Source: an uncultured Pseudomonadota bacterium (lineage in GTDB: Bacteria; Pseudomonadota; Gammaproteobacteria; Ga0077536). Taken from it: a stretch of 64,000 nucleotides of DNA. The stretch lies in assembly GCA_903825645.1 (NCBI GenBank), contig CAIKBL010000007.1, forward strand, positions 1 to 64,000, given 5' to 3'. The position numbers and the translations under genes were made by a program. Below, piece by piece: positions 39,828-63,699 of the stretch; within the stretch, counting starts at the first letter, position 1; every line of letters starts with the position of its first letter. The notes below the pieces were generated by a model. That model saw nothing but the letters and a program-made list of their open reading frames with translations, ran no database searches and was not told where the DNA came from.

Positions 39828-42089
39828 TCAGATCCCGTCAATGGGGCCGTCTTCCATGAATCGGCGCAAGACGTTCAGCGTAATCTGGGCGATCTCGGTG
39901 TTGATGGGCAGTGCTTGCCCCCAAGCGATTGACCCGGTCGCGAATACGGCACCCCCATTGGTCGTGCCGAAAAGGGTGACATCGGCCCGGACTTGAAAAT
40001 CCTGAGTACCGCCAAGGCCTGGGTAATTAAACATGATCTCCTCCCCGACATGAGGATAGTGGTCGGAGTGCCCTTCTGACGCCGCCAGTAGCCAGGTGTT
40101 GGGTGGGGTCCCCCATTGCAGATCGTAGCGATCGATTTCGAGACCCGCTCCGCCGCCCAGTCCGAGGCCGGTTTCGCCGAAGACTTCTCCGGCGACGCCG
40201 TCCATCACCCAAGCAACGGCGGGATCGCGGCTATCCGGTAATGTCCGGTAGGGTCGGCTTTCGTCCATCCCTTCTGAAGTAAAACCAACGCCCATCAATT
40301 TCTGTGGCGGGCGGCCACGGTTGCGCCAAATGCCGCCTCGCTCCCCGGTCGTTGCCATATAGTATTCACCCGGCGCCGCCTGCCATGCTCGGGAACCCGA
40401 ATCGAGCTTGCGGATTTCCATGCACCAGGGCTCGTCCGCCCGAAATGCAACGACCCAGTAATAACCGTTGGCACCCAGATACATCACGCGGCCACCTCGG
40501 GCGAGGTAGGCTTCTGTCGCATCCAGCATGGCTTCGGAGTAGTACTCCGAATGCGTGCCATTCAGGACGACGTTGTAAGGTTTGAGAGCTGCTAGGCCTT
40601 CGCTATGCAGGTGCTCGTCGGTGATCACATCGTAAGCGATGCCGCTCTTTTCCAACCAGTAAATAATGGAGAGGTCGGCCGGAAACTGCCAGGGCACGCC
40701 GGTCGAGGCCATGCGGTGTTTCGGTCGCAGTCCCATAATCGGACGGTGATAAGAGGTGTAACACACCCCGGCGCCGTCGCTATGGTGGTCATAACTGGAG
40801 CGACCCCATTCGGGGTGTTCGGCCAGGAGATAATCAGGATCCTGTAAGATTAGCGTATGCCCAGTCACCGCTTCCACGCCGGGTGCGTCGAGTACGAAAC
40901 GCTCGTTCGCGTAGGCGAGATAGCTGGCGGTTGGCATCAGCATCGCGACCTTGGCCGTGGGCGTGATAGGCCGGACAAAAAAAGTCAGGTGGTCTTCAAC
41001 CACCGGGCCGCGGAGTCGCGCTGCGTATACTCCACTCGGGAGGTCGCGCGGGAGCTGCCACTCGAACGTGGATGGCCAACGACAATCTATAATCGCGTCG
41101 TCATTGAAATACACGCCGCCGTACTGGGTGGGCGCGAGCCGGAAACAGTCGTCCCGGCCCTGCCAGTTGTAACCGGTCATTGCCCGTATGGGTCGGTTGT
41201 ACCCTACGCCGTGGAGACCATAGGGGCCTTTATCGAAAAGTTGCTCGCCGATACCTTTGTCGGTGTAACCCACCGTAGGATCCCAGCGGGCGACTAGCCC
41301 CTCGGTTGGCGGCTCACCTCCACCGCACAAGGCGTCAAGTTCAGCCCGGCTCAAGGCCCGTCCCTGGAAACCCGCGCGGTCGATTTTTCCGTTATACAGA
41401 CCCTGTACGCACGCGCCATGCGTTCCATGGCCATGATACGCGGCAAAAAGTAGCGTTCCGGCAGACGGGGTAGGGGCGATGGAAACATGCGTGGCAAGAT
41501 GATCGGCATAGGTGATTGGTACGATGCCTGAAAGCAAGCTGTTATAGGGGTTGATGACAGCCTCTTGGTAGAGTGTTACCGCCTGTGTTGCTGGGTCGAA
41601 GCTGGCGGCAACGAAGTACCAAATCTTCGCGACCAGCGGGGTCTTCACCGCGACTTCCGCCCGTTCCCGACCATTTCCCAACCACAAGGCAAGACGTCCC
41701 TGGTTGTTAATTCCCAGACCAAAGCCTTCGCCTGTCGAGTCAGACCACCGGGTTAGAAGACCTTGGCGTCCCTTGCCCGGGCTGGTGGGCCATATATACG
41801 CATAGACCGTAAAGGCACGCGAGATTCCGAGTCGACCAGCCGGATCGGCGACTGAGAAATAGCTGCCCACTTGCGTGAAGCGGGAATTGATCTCGACAGA
41901 ACCGTTGCAACTGGCCTCGATTTCTTGCTCGATAAAGCCGGGACCCGCAGGGTTCTCGTCTCCGTGGATAAGTCTGACAATCTGCACGCCGACTTCATCG
42001 ACGCCTTCGCCACTCGTCATGAACCGCTGCGTATCGCCTGCGGTGAGACTGAGGCGTTCACAATAACCCGTGACATATGGCTTGATCAT
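39828..42089 (-). CDS. N,N-dimethylformamidase-like large (beta) subunit
   Basis: This 753-residue protein matches the layout of the large subunit of N,N-dimethylformamidase, which splits dimethylformamide to dimethylamine and formate. It has an N-terminal beta domain and a concanavalin/LamG-like domain (about residues 90-240, with FTVYAYIWPTSPGKGRQGLL and IDRAGFQGRALSRAELDALC). The C-terminal part (about residue 290 to the end) contains FEWQLPRDLPSGVYAARL and an amidotransferase-like region with GGRVMYLGANGYYWVV. The studied Paracoccus enzyme uses an iron site of two Tyr and one Glu in that domain; I cannot align those exactly here. The start at 42089 overlaps the small-subunit stop (ATGA). 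Most homologues are uncharacterised, so the substrate may be another amide. Confidence 0.82.
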   Translation of the reverse strand: MIKPYVTGYCERLSLTAGDTQRFMTSGEGVDEVGVQIVRLIHGDENPAGPGFIEQEIEASCNGSVEINSRFTQVGSYFSVADPAGRLGISRAFTVYAYIWPTSPGKGRQGLLTRWSDSTGEGFGLGINNQGRLALWLGNGRERAEVAVKTPLVAKIWYFVAASFDPATQAVTLYQEAVINPYNSLLSGIVPITYADHLATHVSIAPTPSAGTLLFAAYHGHGTHGACVQGLYNGKIDRAGFQGRALSRAELDALCGGGEPPTEGLVARWDPTVGYTDKGIGEQLFDKGPYGLHGVGYNRPIRAMTGYNWQGRDDCFRLAPTQYGGVYFNDDAIIDCRWPSTFEWQLPRDLPSGVYAARLRGPVVEDHLTFFVRPITPTAKVAMLMPTASYLAYANERFVLDAPGVEAVTGHTLILQDPDYLLAEHPEWGRSSYDHHSDGAGVCYTSYHRPIMGLRPKHRMASTGVPWQFPADLSIIYWLEKSGIAYDVITDEHLHSEGLAALKPYNVVLNGTHSEYYSEAMLDATEAYLARGGRVMYLGANGYYWVVAFRADEPWCMEIRKLDSGSRAWQAAPGEYYMATTGERGGIWRNRGRPPQKLMGVGFTSEGMDESRPYRTLPDSRDPAVAWVMDGVAGEVFGETGLGLGGGAGLEIDRYDLQWGTPPNTWLLAASEGHSDHYPHVGEEIMFNYPGLGGTQDFQVRADVTLFGTTNGGAVFATGSIAWGQALPINTEIAQITLNVLRRFMEDGPIDGI

Positions 42090-42436
42090 GCGGGCTCCCC
42101 GGGAGTCATGAGATCGGTAACGTGGTGCAGGAACACCGCATGACAAGCGGTTCGCTCGTCATCATAAACGGCACTATCCACGGCACGAGGGGGCTCTCCT
42201 GACCGAATCGGCAAGCGGATGACCTGCCATTCGCGGCACGGGATCCGTGCGTAGAGTCCGTAACTGGGCGGACGACTGAAGAAGTTTTTCACGCGCTCCA
42301 GCGAGTCGGAATTTTGTCCCAATGGTTTGAGACGATGCTCTTCAATGAGCGCGGGCGTTATGAGGGTCTTGATCTGGGCTCGGATAGTGCTTGTGAATCG
42401 CGCATATACGAGGTGTTGTTTGTCCGTGTGACGCAT
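42086..42436 (-). CDS. N,N-dimethylformamidase-like small (alpha) subunit
   Basis: A 116-residue protein close in size to the 132-residue small subunit of dimethylformamidase. The second half, SYGLYARIPCREWQVIRL and VYDDERTACHAVFLHHVTDL, fits my recollection of that subunit's pattern. The start is the ATG at 42436, where AGGGGGG lies seven bases upstream; the open frame extends 97 codons further but that part has no ribosome site and a skewed composition. Its stop overlaps the large-subunit start, which strongly supports a two-subunit enzyme. Confidence 0.72.
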   Translation of the reverse strand: MRHTDKQHLVYARFTSTIRAQIKTLITPALIEEHRLKPLGQNSDSLERVKNFFSRPPSYGLYARIPCREWQVIRLPIRSGEPPRAVDSAVYDDERTACHAVFLHHVTDLMTPGEPA

Positions 42437-58197: not shown

Positions 58198-59826
58198 CTA
58201 GCGTAATACAAAGCCCGCGTAGTTGCTGGCAGTGACTTCGCTACATTTCTGTCGATACTGCCCGACGCCACCGATGTAGGAAAGTAGTCGTCGCGGCTTA
58301 CCCTCAACATTCGATCCCATGTACCAAGAGTGCGTTTTAACGACGAGTGTGGCGTTCGCAAGGCCATCGTGATGTTCCACCCAATCGTTCTGGAAAGTTT
58401 CTCCTGGCTCGATAACCTTCACTCCTTTCGCACGCGTATTGGAGATGCATTCAGCGATCCACTCAGTTTGCTGTTGCAGACAGGTTGTCATATTGCAGAG
58501 CGCAGCAGACGGCGCCAGTGGCGCACCGGTTGTAAACAAGTTCGGGTAACCATGGATCATCAACCCCAACGAGGTTCGGATGTCTTTGCGCCATTCTTCT
58601 TTCAGCGAACGTCCTTCTCGACCCCGGATATCAATGCGGGTAAGCGCACCCGAGCCTGCATCAAAGCCAGTCGCGAGAATAACGTAATCGAGCGCATAGA
58701 CGGTCCCGTCTGCTGTTTTGATGCCTTCCGGCACGATTTCGGTAATCGGATTACCTCTCACACTGATAGCCTCAACGTTCGGTCGGTGATAGACCTCGAG
58801 GTAGTGGTGTTCGAGCGGGACCCTATGCGTTCCAAAACCATAATCGGTCGGAATCAGCAGTTCGCAAAGGTGCGGATCTTTTAAACGATCGCGCATTTTC
58901 TGGCGGACAAATTCCGAGATTTCCTCGCTAACTTCCTCATCCATAAACATTTCGGGACAGGTTGCCAGCCACATTTTTAGCGCCCCATGTTGCCAGTTTT
59001 CCTCTAGGATTTCTTGGCGGCGTTCAACCGACATCTTTTTCCACGGCCCATGGACAAAGTCATATTCGAAGCCGGAGAACGTATGCGGGAGTGTCGCCTT
59101 CAATTCTTCGAACCGAGCCTTGTAAGCATCGACCTCGGCGGGACCATAGGAAGGATTGGCCATGGGGTTCACGTACTGTGGCGTCCTAATAAAAACCTTC
59201 AGCTGATCAACTTCTGACGCGATGGTTTGGATCACTTGGATCCCGGTGGCACCAATCCCGATCACGCCGACCCGCTTCCCTTTGAAATCAATGACCTCAT
59301 TCGGCCACCGTGCAGTATGGAAGAGGCGACCTTTAAAACTATCTTGTCCCGGGAAGAGGTTTTCGAGCGGTGCCGATAGCATCCCCCCGCAGGCGACAAA
59401 ATACTGTACATCAAACCGCTGTCCAGCCAGGGTTTCGACGAGCCAGCGTTGTGTCGTCTCATCGAAATGTGCGGAAATCACCGTCGTCTTGAAGAGGATA
59501 TCTTTGCGGAGATCGAGTGAATCGGCGACGTAATTCATCCATCGTTCGATTTCCGGCTGTCCGGGAAATCGTGAACTCCAGCTCCAGTTCTTGTACAGCG
59601 CTTCATCGAAAAGGTACTGGTAGATATAGGCCTCGGAATCAAACTTTGCACCGGGATACCGATTCCAGTACCAGGTCCCGCCCACATTGGATGCGGTATC
59701 CAAGGCCTTGACCGTCAGCCCCATGTTGCGCAGCTGATAGAGCTGGTAGAGCCCGGCCACGCCGGCGCCGACCACGAGCGCATCGATCTTGGTGGCTGTT
59801 TTCGTGTTAGAGAGCGCATCCGACAT
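58198..59826 (-). CDS. Baeyer-Villiger monooxygenase (flavin-containing)
   Basis: A class B flavin monooxygenase of the cyclohexanone monooxygenase type that inserts oxygen next to a ketone to give an ester or lactone, using FAD and NADPH. First Rossmann motif GAGVAG (residues 20-25), the Baeyer-Villiger fingerprint F164-K-G-R-L-F-H-T-A-R-W174, a second Rossmann motif VGVIGIGATGIQ, and ILATGFDAGSG near residue 390. 542 residues, usual for the family. Stand-alone gene on the minus strand. Known relatives act on cyclic or aromatic ketones; esterases elsewhere in the window could open the products. Confidence 0.93.
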   Translation of the reverse strand: MSDALSNTKTATKIDALVVGAGVAGLYQLYQLRNMGLTVKALDTASNVGGTWYWNRYPGAKFDSEAYIYQYLFDEALYKNWSWSSRFPGQPEIERWMNYVADSLDLRKDILFKTTVISAHFDETTQRWLVETLAGQRFDVQYFVACGGMLSAPLENLFPGQDSFKGRLFHTARWPNEVIDFKGKRVGVIGIGATGIQVIQTIASEVDQLKVFIRTPQYVNPMANPSYGPAEVDAYKARFEELKATLPHTFSGFEYDFVHGPWKKMSVERRQEILEENWQHGALKMWLATCPEMFMDEEVSEEISEFVRQKMRDRLKDPHLCELLIPTDYGFGTHRVPLEHHYLEVYHRPNVEAISVRGNPITEIVPEGIKTADGTVYALDYVILATGFDAGSGALTRIDIRGREGRSLKEEWRKDIRTSLGLMIHGYPNLFTTGAPLAPSAALCNMTTCLQQQTEWIAECISNTRAKGVKVIEPGETFQNDWVEHHDGLANATLVVKTHSWYMGSNVEGKPRRLLSYIGGVGQYRQKCSEVTASNYAGFVLR

Positions 59827-60119: not shown

Positions 60120-61376
60120 CTATTTCCCGTGGTAGCGCAGCGGCACTTTGGATTTCTCCGCTTCTTCATAAATTAATGCGTGGGTGCCGGCTGGATAGCC
60201 ATTCTGTTGAAGGATGTAGGCCATGATGAGGACATCTTGCTCGCGCGTCAGACTACCCGGGGCGCTCGGCGGCATGAGTTTCGCGACGAAATTGAATATG
60301 TCGCTGACGTGGAAATCGTAGCTCGCGTCAGCGAAATCCTCTCCTTTTAGGGCGGGTCCAGCGTAACCCCCGGCTTGCCCTTCCATCAGCGGACCATGGC
60401 ACATCGCACAGTTCTGAAAGTAGGCGATGGCCCCTTTTTCAGCTTGAGCGCCTGCGTATAGCGCCGGTGGGCGCTTGTGTTTTGGCGCTGATGGCGTCGT
60501 TGTATTAGAGACCTTGATTAGGTCCTGTGTGGCCGAGTTATGAATCACCCCAGAGGTTGGCTTGAAATCGGCGACAGTCGGTGCAATACGCCCGCCGGCA
60601 GTAGTGGCGACTACTTGATATGGTTCAAGCAAACGTTCGAGTTGCCCCTTGTTTTTTAATTCAGCAAGCCCCTCTGCGAATAATTCGGCAGCGCGCTGGG
60701 AGGACGGCATGTACAGGGCAACAAGGTTCCAGCGCATGTGTTTCTCAGGCACGATACGAATGTCGAACAAGGGAGGCTTGGCGCGATCGTGGATATAGCG
60801 CTCAATAGTGGGCTGCCAGGCGAGGCCAGCGGTAATGTGTTCGGTCGCCAAGTCCGCAAGCATCAGCGAGTCTTTGGGGTACACATGCATGACGATGTTG
60901 GGATGGGCGCTGTAGAGCAGGCCAGCATAGGTATCGAGCTGCGCGATCCCGACTTCGCTGCCCTTAGGCAGCTCACTCAGGGATGAGCTTGGAGCTTGAA
61001 TGCGCTGGACCATCACAAAACCGGTACTCGCGTAAGGCAACGTAGCGACAACATCAGGTGGCAGACTGGGGTTGGTCACATCTACCGGGAATCCCATCAC
61101 TAGCTGACATTCGGAACTAGCCAATTTCGCAAAACGATTGACCGGAAAGCCATCGCCACCTTTGCCAAGGCCGACGAATTTGACGAGCTGTACCCCGTAA
61201 TGCTGGGTTTTGGCCGATGCGCGGACTACCCGCGCATCCATGGTCCACGTGGGGTTGGCTTGGTCGACGCACACTTTCAATAAAGGCGCAGCCGTAGCGC
61301 AGCGCATTAGCACCGCACCCAGCATGGCCACTACCAAATAAGCGCCACGCAACGCCTTACGGTAAGGCGAAGACAT
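60120..61376 (-). CDS. fusion of periplasmic XoxJ-like binding protein and cytochrome c (XoxG-like)
   Basis: A 418-residue secreted protein: signal peptide (about residues 1-29, MSSPYRKALRGAYLVVAMLG to ATAA), then a bacterial solute-binding domain (about residues 30-270) like XoxJ/MoxJ, a linker, and a cytochrome c domain (about residues 310-400) with CAMCH at 323-327 and the probable sixth ligand Met368 in KLMPPSAPG. It follows and overlaps the PQQ dehydrogenase gene by 20 bases. Separate XoxG (electron acceptor) and XoxJ are partners of lanthanide methanol dehydrogenase; a natural G-J fusion is reported in the methanotroph Methylacidiphilum fumariolicum. The start at 61376 is used as AAAGGCGG precedes it; a longer frame lies in the dehydrogenase gene. 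Confidence 0.82.
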   Translation of the reverse strand: MSSPYRKALRGAYLVVAMLGAVLMRCATAAPLLKVCVDQANPTWTMDARVVRASAKTQHYGVQLVKFVGLGKGGDGFPVNRFAKLASSECQLVMGFPVDVTNPSLPPDVVATLPYASTGFVMVQRIQAPSSSLSELPKGSEVGIAQLDTYAGLLYSAHPNIVMHVYPKDSLMLADLATEHITAGLAWQPTIERYIHDRAKPPLFDIRIVPEKHMRWNLVALYMPSSQRAAELFAEGLAELKNKGQLERLLEPYQVVATTAGGRIAPTVADFKPTSGVIHNSATQDLIKVSNTTTPSAPKHKRPPALYAGAQAEKGAIAYFQNCAMCHGPLMEGQAGGYAGPALKGEDFADASYDFHVSDIFNFVAKLMPPSAPGSLTREQDVLIMAYILQQNGYPAGTHALIYEEAEKSKVPLRYHGK

Positions 61377-63087
61377 AAAGTCGTCCGCCTTTCGGAATTG
61401 CCGCGACCGCGGGATCCTTGGCCATCTCTCCGCCCCAAATCGGTCCGGCACCGCCCCAGCCGGCCCAGACGGCGACATACTGCTTATCCCCCACCAGGTA
61501 AGTCGTCGGCACCCCAATGATTCCGGAACCGAGTTGGGTACTGCGCCAGAGGACTTTCCCCGTCTTTGCATCAAAGGCCATGAAATGCCCATCCGTGCTT
61601 CCGCTGAACATCAGGCCACTGGCGCTGGTCAGTGTGCCGCTGGACCAAGGTAGGTGCGTTGCGTACTGCCAGACCTGTTTACCTGTATTGAGGTCGACCC
61701 CCTGCACCGAGCCCCAATTGTCCGTGGTTGGGTCGCGTTTGACCTCAAAAGTTTCGTCTAGAAACGCAAGTCCCCCCTTATAGGCGATCGGTTGGATGCC
61801 CTTGATGTCCATGCACGCGTGCAGCGTCGGGATGTACGCCATGTGATTGTTTGGATCAATGGATATCGGCCACCAACTCTTGCCGCCCAAGAAGCTCGGG
61901 CAAGTGAATACTTTTTTATCAATGGCCGGACGCATGGCTGGATCATCCTGCGGCACCCCACCTTTCATGCCGACGATAGAAGTCGTATGCACGAAAGGTT
62001 CCGCGTAGATAAGCTTGCCATTGCTGCGATCAATCGCATAGAACCAACCGTTCCGGTCTGCGTGGACGAGTGCTTTGTAAGGATGACCGCTGTAGGTGAG
62101 TTCTGTCATCACGATCTCGTTTGCGCCGTCGTAGTCCCAGGTATCGTTAGGCGTCCACTGGTAATGCCACTTCAACTTGCCCGAGTCCGGATCCAGCGCC
62201 ATCACCGAATCGGTATATAGATTGGCGCCAGGTCGCAACGTGGCAAGCCACGGGCCTGGATTTCCCACGCCCCAGAACAAGGTGTTAGTCGCATAGTCGT
62301 AAGTGCCGGTGATCCAGGGATTGCCGCCGCCCGTCTTATAGGCACCCGTGGGCCAGGTATCGCCACCTGGCGCACCGGGTGCCGCTGTCGTATAGGTTTT
62401 CCATACGATTTTGCCGCTTCTGGCATCCATGGCGACGATGAAACCACGCGCGCCATATTCGCCGCCGCCGTCTCCGATAATCACCTTGTCGTTCACGATG
62501 AGCGGCGCACCCGAGATAAAGTATCCGACACCCGGAGGGGCGAGCGCAGTGTCCCACTTTACCTTGCCGGTCTTCGCGTCGAGTGCCACGATGTGATTGC
62601 CCAATGTCCCCATGTAGACCAGGTCGTTATACAGCGCCACTCCGCGGTTTACGACGTCACAGCAAACCGTCTTTAACGCTTTTTTATCGATCGGGTAATC
62701 ATATTCCCAGCGTACTTTGCCGGTTGTGGCATCGAGCGCGATCAAGTGATCCAACGGCGTTGTCACAAACATATAGTTGCCGTTGACCACCGGTGCGCCC
62801 TCGTGACCCTGGGTTAGCCCGCTGCGGTAATCAAAGACCGGTTGTAGTTTGTCGACGTTGTGGCTGTTGATTTGCTCAAATGGCGCGTATCCGGTGCTTT
62901 CATAATTTCGCCGATACATGAGCCAACCCTTATCCTGTTGGGCGTCGACCAACCGCTTCGCGGTGACCGCGGGGTAGGCGTCGTCGGCGCAATAAGCCGG
63001 TAGCGATAGGAAGGTAGCCCATAGAAAAGCTCCGAGGCTGAGCACCCGTTTGGCTGTCGTCAAAATGAAACCCTTACTCCCGTTCAT
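61357..63087 (-). CDS. PQQ-dependent alcohol dehydrogenase, probably lanthanide-type
   Basis: A periplasmic quinoprotein oxidising alcohols. 576 residues with a signal peptide ending near AYCADDAYPA, the eight-bladed propeller W-motifs (e.g. DATTGKVRWEYD, DAKTGKVKWDT, DPDSGKLKWHY), the adjacent cysteine pair C142-C143 whose disulfide lies over PQQ, and the catalytic Asp318 in NDTWDYDGANE. The Asp two residues later (D320) is the position that marks lanthanide-dependent enzymes (XoxF, PedH, ExaF); calcium enzymes such as MxaF have Ala or similar there. The start at 63087 has GGAG just upstream. Overlaps the XoxJ-cytochrome gene, its likely electron-acceptor partner. Substrate could be methanol, ethanol or longer alcohols. 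Confidence 0.9.
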   Translation of the reverse strand: MNGSKGFILTTAKRVLSLGAFLWATFLSLPAYCADDAYPAVTAKRLVDAQQDKGWLMYRRNYESTGYAPFEQINSHNVDKLQPVFDYRSGLTQGHEGAPVVNGNYMFVTTPLDHLIALDATTGKVRWEYDYPIDKKALKTVCCDVVNRGVALYNDLVYMGTLGNHIVALDAKTGKVKWDTALAPPGVGYFISGAPLIVNDKVIIGDGGGEYGARGFIVAMDARSGKIVWKTYTTAAPGAPGGDTWPTGAYKTGGGNPWITGTYDYATNTLFWGVGNPGPWLATLRPGANLYTDSVMALDPDSGKLKWHYQWTPNDTWDYDGANEIVMTELTYSGHPYKALVHADRNGWFYAIDRSNGKLIYAEPFVHTTSIVGMKGGVPQDDPAMRPAIDKKVFTCPSFLGGKSWWPISIDPNNHMAYIPTLHACMDIKGIQPIAYKGGLAFLDETFEVKRDPTTDNWGSVQGVDLNTGKQVWQYATHLPWSSGTLTSASGLMFSGSTDGHFMAFDAKTGKVLWRSTQLGSGIIGVPTTYLVGDKQYVAVWAGWGGAGPIWGGEMAKDPAVAAIPKGGRLYVFALP

Positions 63088-63699
63088 ATCTAACTCCTTC
63101 TCCCCTTTTGATACGTCCGTCAGTCGCATTGCGTTTTTTTTTGCCGCTCACCGTTAAAGCGAGATGTGGATTTATCGGTTTTTTAAAATCATCTACGTTA
63201 ACCCGAATCATGCGACTTTCCCTTGCCGGCGGTATCCAGCCACATTTAAAAAAAGACTTTTTTAGCGAAAGGATTTTGCCGGAACAAGGGGGGGTATGCG
63301 CAAGTCGTCTATGGCCTGTCATCAACAAAATTTCCGTGCTGCGAAGCACAAAAATATCTAGCGTGGTTTGACCGAATCTCCCCTCAGGTCGGCTGGGGCT
63401 GGGATAAAGCGGTAGGGAAGGGGCCCCCTAATCGCTGCATCGCTGGGCCAAAAAATAGCCCCGTGCGCGTAGAACGTTTAAGAGGCGTTCACCGACGATC
63501 GTCCAAGGTTATCATTGCGCAACACCCAATTATTCCAATAAATTTCGGAGACGAGGAGACACGACTATCCATTTTTCTTTTAAAGCATGCTTAAAGCGGA
63601 GGTATCCGTGGCCTACAGCACTTGCGTGTTGCGCCCGCAATGTCGTTGGTGCGGCCAACTAATTTAAATCATTTTTCGAAATGGTCTAACGGAGGATTT
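63088..63699. other. intergenic region between PQQ dehydrogenase and aroE
   Basis: About 610 bases, divergent promoters expected. The first 200 bases next to the dehydrogenase are A/T-rich with runs of T and A (63127-63136 and around 63245), fit for a promoter. The rest shows no recognised gene; a tiny frame with a good ribosome site is listed separately. Confidence 0.45.
63608..63667 (+). CDS. possible very small ORF (leader peptide?)
   Basis: GCGGAGG five bases before a GTG opens a 19-codon frame (MAYSTCVLRPQCRWCGQLI) with three Cys and one Trp, ending at TAA 63665-63667, 32 bases before the TTG start of aroE. The ribosome site is the only support; no family is recognised. It may be chance. 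Confidence 0.2.
   Translation: MAYSTCVLRPQCRWCGQLI

Follow-up and report, generated by a model that had tools for sequence, protein, structure and literature searches.

A pair of overlapping genes lies near the end of a 64,000-nucleotide stretch (the window) of contig CAIKBL010000007.1 from an uncultured gammaproteobacterium, both on the reverse strand. The upstream gene (61357..63087, ATG at 63087) encodes a 576-residue pyrroloquinoline quinone (PQQ)-dependent alcohol dehydrogenase of the methanol/ethanol family, and the downstream gene (60120..61376, ATG at 61376, stop codon ending at 60120) encodes a 418-residue protein in which a domain resembling XoxJ and MxaJ, here called J, is followed by a cytochrome c. 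The two genes share 20 bp (61357..61376, reverse strand); the corresponding overlap is 17 bp in three relatives (loci L050, L051, and L052). The initial annotation of this DNA, made from the letters alone, had described a secreted protein with a J-like domain and then a CAMCH cytochrome c with a methionine ligand, overlapping a dehydrogenase gene, and our analysis bears out this description together with its coordinates. The letters GAAGGAG precede the dehydrogenase ATG, and an alternative in-frame ATG upstream, at 63129, would give a longer protein. Base composition gives no sign of a recent import of the pair (56.0 and 56.7% GC in the two genes, 56.9% in the window). The promoter scan found 2 candidates where 2.7 were expected, and the terminator scan 5 where 4.8 were expected, both at the level of chance.

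The fusion protein begins with a signal peptide (residues about 1–29, by eye). The J domain follows at residues 30–260 (60597..61289, reverse strand), recognized by hhalign, by the solute-binding fold of an AlphaFold2 (AF2) model, and by a pair of cysteines. A linker (residues 257–299; 60480..60608, reverse strand), which holds the motif LIKVS, is disordered in the AF2 model, with a predicted local distance difference test score (pLDDT) below 50. Residues 306–418 (60123..60461, reverse strand) form a class I cytochrome c domain (PF13442, 34.5 bits) with the haem site C323-A-M-C326-H327; Met368, invariant in the 40 rows of our alignment A2, is by inference the sixth haem ligand. Mean pLDDT is 80.0 for the whole fusion and 88.8 for the cytochrome domain modelled alone. 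The dehydrogenase has a signal-like N-terminal stretch (by eye), scores 557 bits with TIGR03075 (cut-off 480.05), and carries the vicinal pair Cys142-Cys143, Glu210, Asn276, and the D-x-D motif of Asp318 and Asp320.

Conservation and distribution of the fusion

A scan of genome contigs, with two short conserved peptides as probes, found 126 relatives, from which 80 loci were kept, some of them from the same organism or near-copies. They comprise 62 fusions, 5 loci with separate J and cytochrome genes (split loci), and 13 with a cytochrome alone, including L055, to which we return below. The search itself accounts in part for the other 12 stand-alone cytochromes, since one of its short probes was the haem site. 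J lies ahead of the cytochrome in all 62 fusions as it does here, so the J-first order that had been flagged for checking is confirmed, and CXXCH is present in 62/62. An upstream dehydrogenase gene on the same strand, overlapping or within 119 bp, accompanies 61 of the 62 fusions (the exception, L049, is a cut contig) and also stands upstream in 5/5 split loci. The split loci (L057, L058, L077, L080, and L082; four Acidocella and one metagenome-assembled genome, MAG) share with our pair the dehydrogenase branch, the J and cytochrome families, and the order, with J and cytochrome as two separate, adjacent genes.

Going by record titles, Burkholderiales account for 56 of the 62 fusions, and the remaining six are L049–L054. 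A tblastn search of plasmid records returned 33 records, and in 15 of these a single place covered at least 80% of the query; the first 15 rows all bear Burkholderiaceae names, and in both annotated plasmid examples that were opened the fusion gene follows a methanol/ethanol-family dehydrogenase. The fusion is real and conserved, and frequent among Burkholderiales loci.

We also considered whether the fusion might be a chance read-through, a mis-assembly, or a pseudogene. Nothing was found in favour of this explanation; the 62 homologous fusions among 80 loci and the 15 plasmid records refute it, and we give it a negligible probability.

As the same counts show, the fusion is no lone oddity. 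Its frequency among Burkholderiales loci makes it less of a surprise than it first seemed. The examples viewed there are annotated in generic terms or not at all: in Burkholderiaceae records the gene is called a transporter substrate-binding protein, a c-type cytochrome, or a hypothetical protein, or is left unannotated. Burkholderiaceae fusions such as WP_175686201.1 and WP_206470346.1 have the same full-length architecture and dehydrogenase branch, whereas their identity to the source fusion is about 23–28% and they are separated from the dehydrogenase by 29–119 bp (with the chosen starts), with no overlap. Among the titles and abstract openings listed by searches of open-licence PMC full text, none describes a J-cytochrome fusion outside Methylacidiphilum.

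The closest relatives of the fusion are the MAGs L049–L052, with 55–64% identity in the best segment, and one of them is titled Steroidobacteraceae. No full-length copy was found in the genus and family relatives searched. The whole fusion matched 25 of 58 relative genomes, the source genome included; the others matched by the cytochrome half, except for two (G021 and G026), where it was the J half that matched, each time in a separate frame, and the one of these that was inspected (L023) overlaps a PQQ dehydrogenase. The J half as query (E ≤ 1e-3) matched 1 of 369 genomes of the class, the dehydrogenase (E ≤ 1e-200) 1 of 40 genomes, each time the source genome itself, and profile A1 (E ≤ 1e-30) 2 of 398 genomes of the phylum, the source genome and the Burkholderiales-type genome G705. 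With so few matches among genus and family, class, and phylum genomes, some of them incomplete, the gene pair is patchy near the source organism.

The J and cytochrome halves

The N-terminal half appears to belong to the XoxJ/MxaJ superfamily in the broad sense, as judged by profile similarity, a cysteine pair, and the PQQ dehydrogenase beside it. In hhalign, a profile of 19 J domains (A3; 16 fused and 3 split rows) was compared with one built from six proteins of the XoxJ, MxaJ, and PQQ-linked J kinds; the alignment spans 220 columns and has a probability of 99.5% (E 5e-23). Cys36 and Cys90 occupy the cysteine positions of XoxJ and MxaJ (9ism_B, 6onp, 5sv6), which two AncCDT sequences are without, and the corresponding patterns count 61/62 and 62/62 among the fusions, the single miss being the cut contig L049. 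When A3 was run against five MxaI-bearing genomes, 10 of 12 matches (E ≤ 0.01) were of the MxaJ/XoxJ type and 2 were generic binders; eight of the ten come with a dehydrogenase frame in the stretch retrieved, whereas two were classed by sequence only. Both the placement of the cysteine pair and the predominance of MxaJ/XoxJ-type matches in these genomes speak for a J. The second A3 match in the source genome (E 2.7e-15) is a separate J-like protein (L039:1402-2247; G000:C69, C69:37865) that overlaps another D-x-D PQQ dehydrogenase.

The tertiary fold gives a less specific answer. The model of the J half superposes on MxaJ (5sv6, Z 17.0; 9ism_B, Z 16.8) and XoxJ (6onp, Z 16.6) in VIA-align, and XoxJ and MxaJ are absent among the 50 Foldseek matches listed. 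Since the fold cannot separate XoxJ from amino-acid binders, we do not take it as proof of family. The initial annotation had expected a domain pair of a solute-binding protein and a cytochrome; Pfam recognized the cytochrome alone, with no match to the J half, and it is the AF2 solute-binding fold and the match to the J profile that support the other member of the pair.

Several results weigh against the reading of the gene pair that we propose below. The J domain scores 13.8 bits with TIGR03871, below the cut-off of 212.15, as do two other fusions (24.6 and 31.1 bits). Amino-acid binders outscore XoxJ and MxaJ by fold, with Z up to 19.9. In a PDB search with A3 generic binders rank above J proteins (6h30, E 5e-12; MxaJ, 1e-5; XoxJ, 2e-4), and G705, once its own fusion is set aside, yields five A3 matches, all of them to generic binders or to larger proteins. 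The cytochrome likewise fails the XoxG/cL cut-off of TIGR03872, with 16.1 of 147.8 bits. In hhalign the cytochrome half reached 96.6% with the XoxG/MxaG set and 89.2% with PedF. By fold the cytochrome points neither way, cytochrome cL (7c90, Z 7.7) lying inside a tied field of cytochrome c domains reaching Z 8.6.

An alternative is that J has kept a small-molecule ligand (a substrate, an amino acid, or a compound of the lanthanophore type) which it senses or delivers, with only an incidental part for the cytochrome. The fold of J is indeed that of amino-acid binders, excerpts of a review state that PedG was annotated in silico as an amino-acid binder (PMC12997753), and in a Caballeronia stretch a sugar ATP-binding cassette (ABC) binding-protein gene lies several kb upstream. 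However, no ABC permease or ATPase was recognized among the scanned neighbours or annotated in the two regions viewed, J has at the aligned position no counterpart of the T-x-E-R stretch known from amino-acid binders (by eye), and the J kin in the five MxaI genomes lie mostly beside PQQ dehydrogenases. We consider such a ligand-binding role very improbable.

The dehydrogenase branch and the origin of the fusion

The extra aspartate reported by the initial annotation, Asp320, two residues after the catalytic Asp318, aligns with the aspartate of PedH and XoxF; the same column holds Ala in the MxaF rows, Ser in ExaA and its kin, and Thr in the quinohaemoprotein alcohol dehydrogenases (ADHs). It is Asp in 67/67 dehydrogenases of these loci (61 fused, 5 split, and L055). 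The top PDB matches are two entries that we take to be PedH (6zcw, the best, and 6zcv), followed by XoxF (4mae) and by what is presumably ExaA (1flg); the entries that we name PedH and ExaA are labelled quinoprotein ethanol dehydrogenase.

We computed a 50-row IQ-TREE tree, midpoint-rooted for drawing only, with rows that include 4 PDB references, 4 MxaF from mxaI loci, 2 XoxF5, other plasmid-borne enzymes, and 10 paralogues from the source genome, several of which are on very long branches, so that their placement is unsure. The 23 sampled dehydrogenases of fused loci, split loci, and L055 form one side of a branch with 100/100 support, apart from XoxF (4mae and the two XoxF5), the four MxaF, PedH/ExaA, and the quinohaemoprotein ADHs. 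This branch spans Burkholderiaceae, Acidocella, Pseudoxanthomonas, Oleiagrimonas, and gammaproteobacterial MAGs. As the initial annotation had anticipated, the enzyme does not group with calcium-type dehydrogenases.

Two more familiar identities were tried and rejected. A XoxF type does not hold, because the enzyme lies in its own 23-row branch (100/100) although the aspartate two after the catalytic one is present. PedH/ExaF fares no better, since PedH groups with Azospirillum and Phaeobacter enzymes and, further out, ExaA-type rows (6 rows, 100/100).

The dehydrogenase belongs to a separate branch of putative lanthanide D-x-D enzymes. The motif itself is no proof of lanthanide use: the membrane glucose dehydrogenase carries D-x-D and yet is predicted, in the accessible part of an ocean metagenome study, to be only facultatively lanthanide-dependent (PMC11996626). 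This example, and the separation of the branch from both PedH and XoxF, leave some room for a calcium-using or metal-promiscuous enzyme in which D-x-D is no sign of lanthanide dependence. We regard that as rather unlikely in view of the Asp at D+2 in every member, a position held by A in the MxaF references, by S in those of the ExaA type, and by T in the quinohaemoproteins.

The arrangement can be compared with several known systems. Like the xoxF-xoxJ-xoxG and mxaFJGI operons, the locus combines a dehydrogenase, a J with the cysteine pair, and a cytochrome, and it shares D-x-D with XoxF; there, however, the genes are separate and the dehydrogenases belong to other branches, and here J and cytochrome fall below the TIGR03871 and TIGR03872 cut-offs. 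PedH/ExaF with PedF and PedG similarly joins a D-x-D PQQ alcohol dehydrogenase, PedH being the best PDB match, to a cytochrome and a binding protein, but as separate proteins and with a different dehydrogenase branch. In quinohaemoprotein (type II) ADHs a cytochrome c is also covalently built into the electron path; there it is fused to the dehydrogenase itself (1kv9), and the D+2 residue is Thr and not the Asp found here.

A close parallel is cGJ or XoxG:J of Methylacidiphilum, described in excerpts of three papers as a XoxJ-type part and a c-type cytochrome in one protein that is the acceptor of a PQQ dehydrogenase (PMC6688271, PMC8498564, PMC8170126). Its operon is written xoxFJG:J in PMC6688271, where the J part is called truncated and xoxJ also exists as a separate gene. 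By this operon name G would precede J, whereas J comes first here, is full-length, and is the sole J of the gene pair, and the dehydrogenase is outside the XoxF branch. Because of the opposite domain order, the truncated J, and the separate xoxJ in Methylacidiphilum, the fusion described here most simply arose independently of that one. What we describe is a variant of a known J/cytochrome partner system, a J-first fusion attached to a separate D-x-D dehydrogenase branch.

The fusion retains the gene order dehydrogenase, J, cytochrome, which is found as separate genes in an mxa cluster, an S. medicae cluster, and the five split loci. The order is not universal, since in the Sagittula xoxF5 cluster the cytochrome lies ahead of J. 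The S. medicae cluster, on plasmid pSMED03 (L161:4998-11681), has a D-x-D dehydrogenase, an overlapping J, a cytochrome, and then cytochrome oxidase subunits; its dehydrogenase groups with the XoxF rows, and the locus resembles XoxF3 systems as described in an excerpt of PMC10875860.

Within the branch, the split loci sit among fused lineages, beside the source group (86/73 in the 50-row tree); together with the source group and the Pseudoxanthomonas/Oleiagrimonas pair they are separated from Burkholderiaceae at 98/96. A second tree, which carries a warning of long branches, does not resolve the placement of the split loci. The distribution may reflect a single fusion followed by fission, or several fusions. 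A LIKVS-like motif in 42/63 linkers, for which the chance level was not computed, hints weakly at a single origin.

Proposed function and genomic context

We propose that the locus is probably a two-gene unit: a PQQ alcohol dehydrogenase, periplasmic and predicted from its D-x-D motif to bind a lanthanide, and a J-tethered cytochrome that serves this enzyme as redox partner. The cytochrome half would accept electrons singly from the reduced PQQ into the CAMCH haem. The J half would bind the dehydrogenase, a flexible tether keeping the cytochrome on its own enzyme, and would probably retain the maturation role of XoxJ and MxaJ by holding the apo-enzyme during PQQ and metal entry. According to the accessible part of a 2026 review (PMC12997753), XoxJ and MxaJ may bind the partly folded apo-enzyme and thereby aid PQQ and metal entry, with docking and regulation as rival proposals; these proposals, and the presence in the PDB of a cryo-EM entry that by its title is an MxaF/MxaJ complex (9ism), are the reason why we infer binding of J to the dehydrogenase and a tethered cytochrome. 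The acceptor wired to its own dehydrogenase that the initial annotation had suggested stands in this conditional form, as do electron transfer between the two proteins, maturation, and lanthanide use, each read from sequence.

A more specific version, which we put forward only tentatively, is that one protein both matures and unloads the enzyme: J would load PQQ and the rare-earth metal and stay bound, and the tethered cytochrome would then drain the enzyme at once. If this were true, J would be a permanent subunit of the complex that transfers the electrons, rather than a chaperone that binds transiently, and such complexes would occur in dozens of bacteria, mostly of the soil type, in genera not chiefly known for methylotrophy (62 fused loci). 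J might instead serve for docking only, tethering the cytochrome while the apo-enzyme is left to a different maturation protein, for instance the separate J encoded at G000:C69. That second J-like protein beside another PQQ dehydrogenase (C69:37865) speaks for docking, as does a speculation mentioned in PMC6688271, by which the J part of XoxG:J from strain Kam1 attaches the cytochrome to the enzyme. On the other hand, J is modelled here as a full-length binding fold, unlike the truncated J of XoxG:J, and the two-gene unit holds no separate J; we find docking alone somewhat doubtful. The covalent pairing of J and cytochrome, in the order opposite to that of Methylacidiphilum, provides an independent hint which suggests that J works beside the cytochrome. 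With the maturation, docking, and regulation roles described as competing proposals in the review excerpt (PMC12997753), a J-cytochrome fusion makes the role of XoxJ/MxaJ testable.

One locus counts against the preferred reading of a J-tethered redox partner. In L055 (L055:6001-6729) most of J is deleted in frame; a signal-like start and the cytochrome remain, with the D-x-D dehydrogenase still upstream. J may be dispensable there, or the deletion may be an error in the MAG.

The initial annotation had noted the lack of a PQQ gene set nearby; pqqC is found elsewhere in the source genome (G000:C25:82609). MxaI has no match in this genome, and 32 stretches match PF13360 (on C3, C7, C42, C80, C87, and other contigs), indicating many PQQ-type propellers. 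In Acidocella aromatica (L082:5752-9025), J, the cytochrome, and then pqqB- and pqqC-like frames (pqq by eye) lie downstream of the dehydrogenase. In B. multivorans (L044:7228-7545) a high-potential iron-sulfur protein gene directly follows the fusion and is a possible next electron carrier.

Among relatives, L052 and L054 have aldehyde dehydrogenase genes upstream; downstream, TonB receptor genes are found in L052 and L053, and genes of the acetyl-CoA synthetase type in L049 and B. multivorans. Such neighbours fit an oxidation of alcohol to acid and CoA ester, although the surroundings differ from locus to locus, with P450 and condensation-domain genes in L055, a met-zincin in L050, and a short-chain dehydrogenase/reductase in L051, and two scanned frames were without a family.

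In the window, a flavin-containing monooxygenase (FMO)-like gene, probably of the Baeyer-Villiger type (58198..59826, reverse strand; PF00743, 61.4 bits), lies 293 bp downstream of the fusion. It scores 243.6 bits with NF045818, far below the cut-off of 1100, and is probably not part of the two-gene unit. Beyond it lie an ammonium transporter gene and, further off, thymidylate synthase, dihydrofolate reductase, P450, and luciferase-like genes. In this setting the terpenoid part of the alcohol and terpenoid catabolism first suggested for the region is weak. At 39828-42146 the window also encodes a dimethylformamidase beta-subunit-like protein with a laminin-G-type lectin domain, with a luciferase-like monooxygenase and a glutathione S-transferase-type protein nearby.

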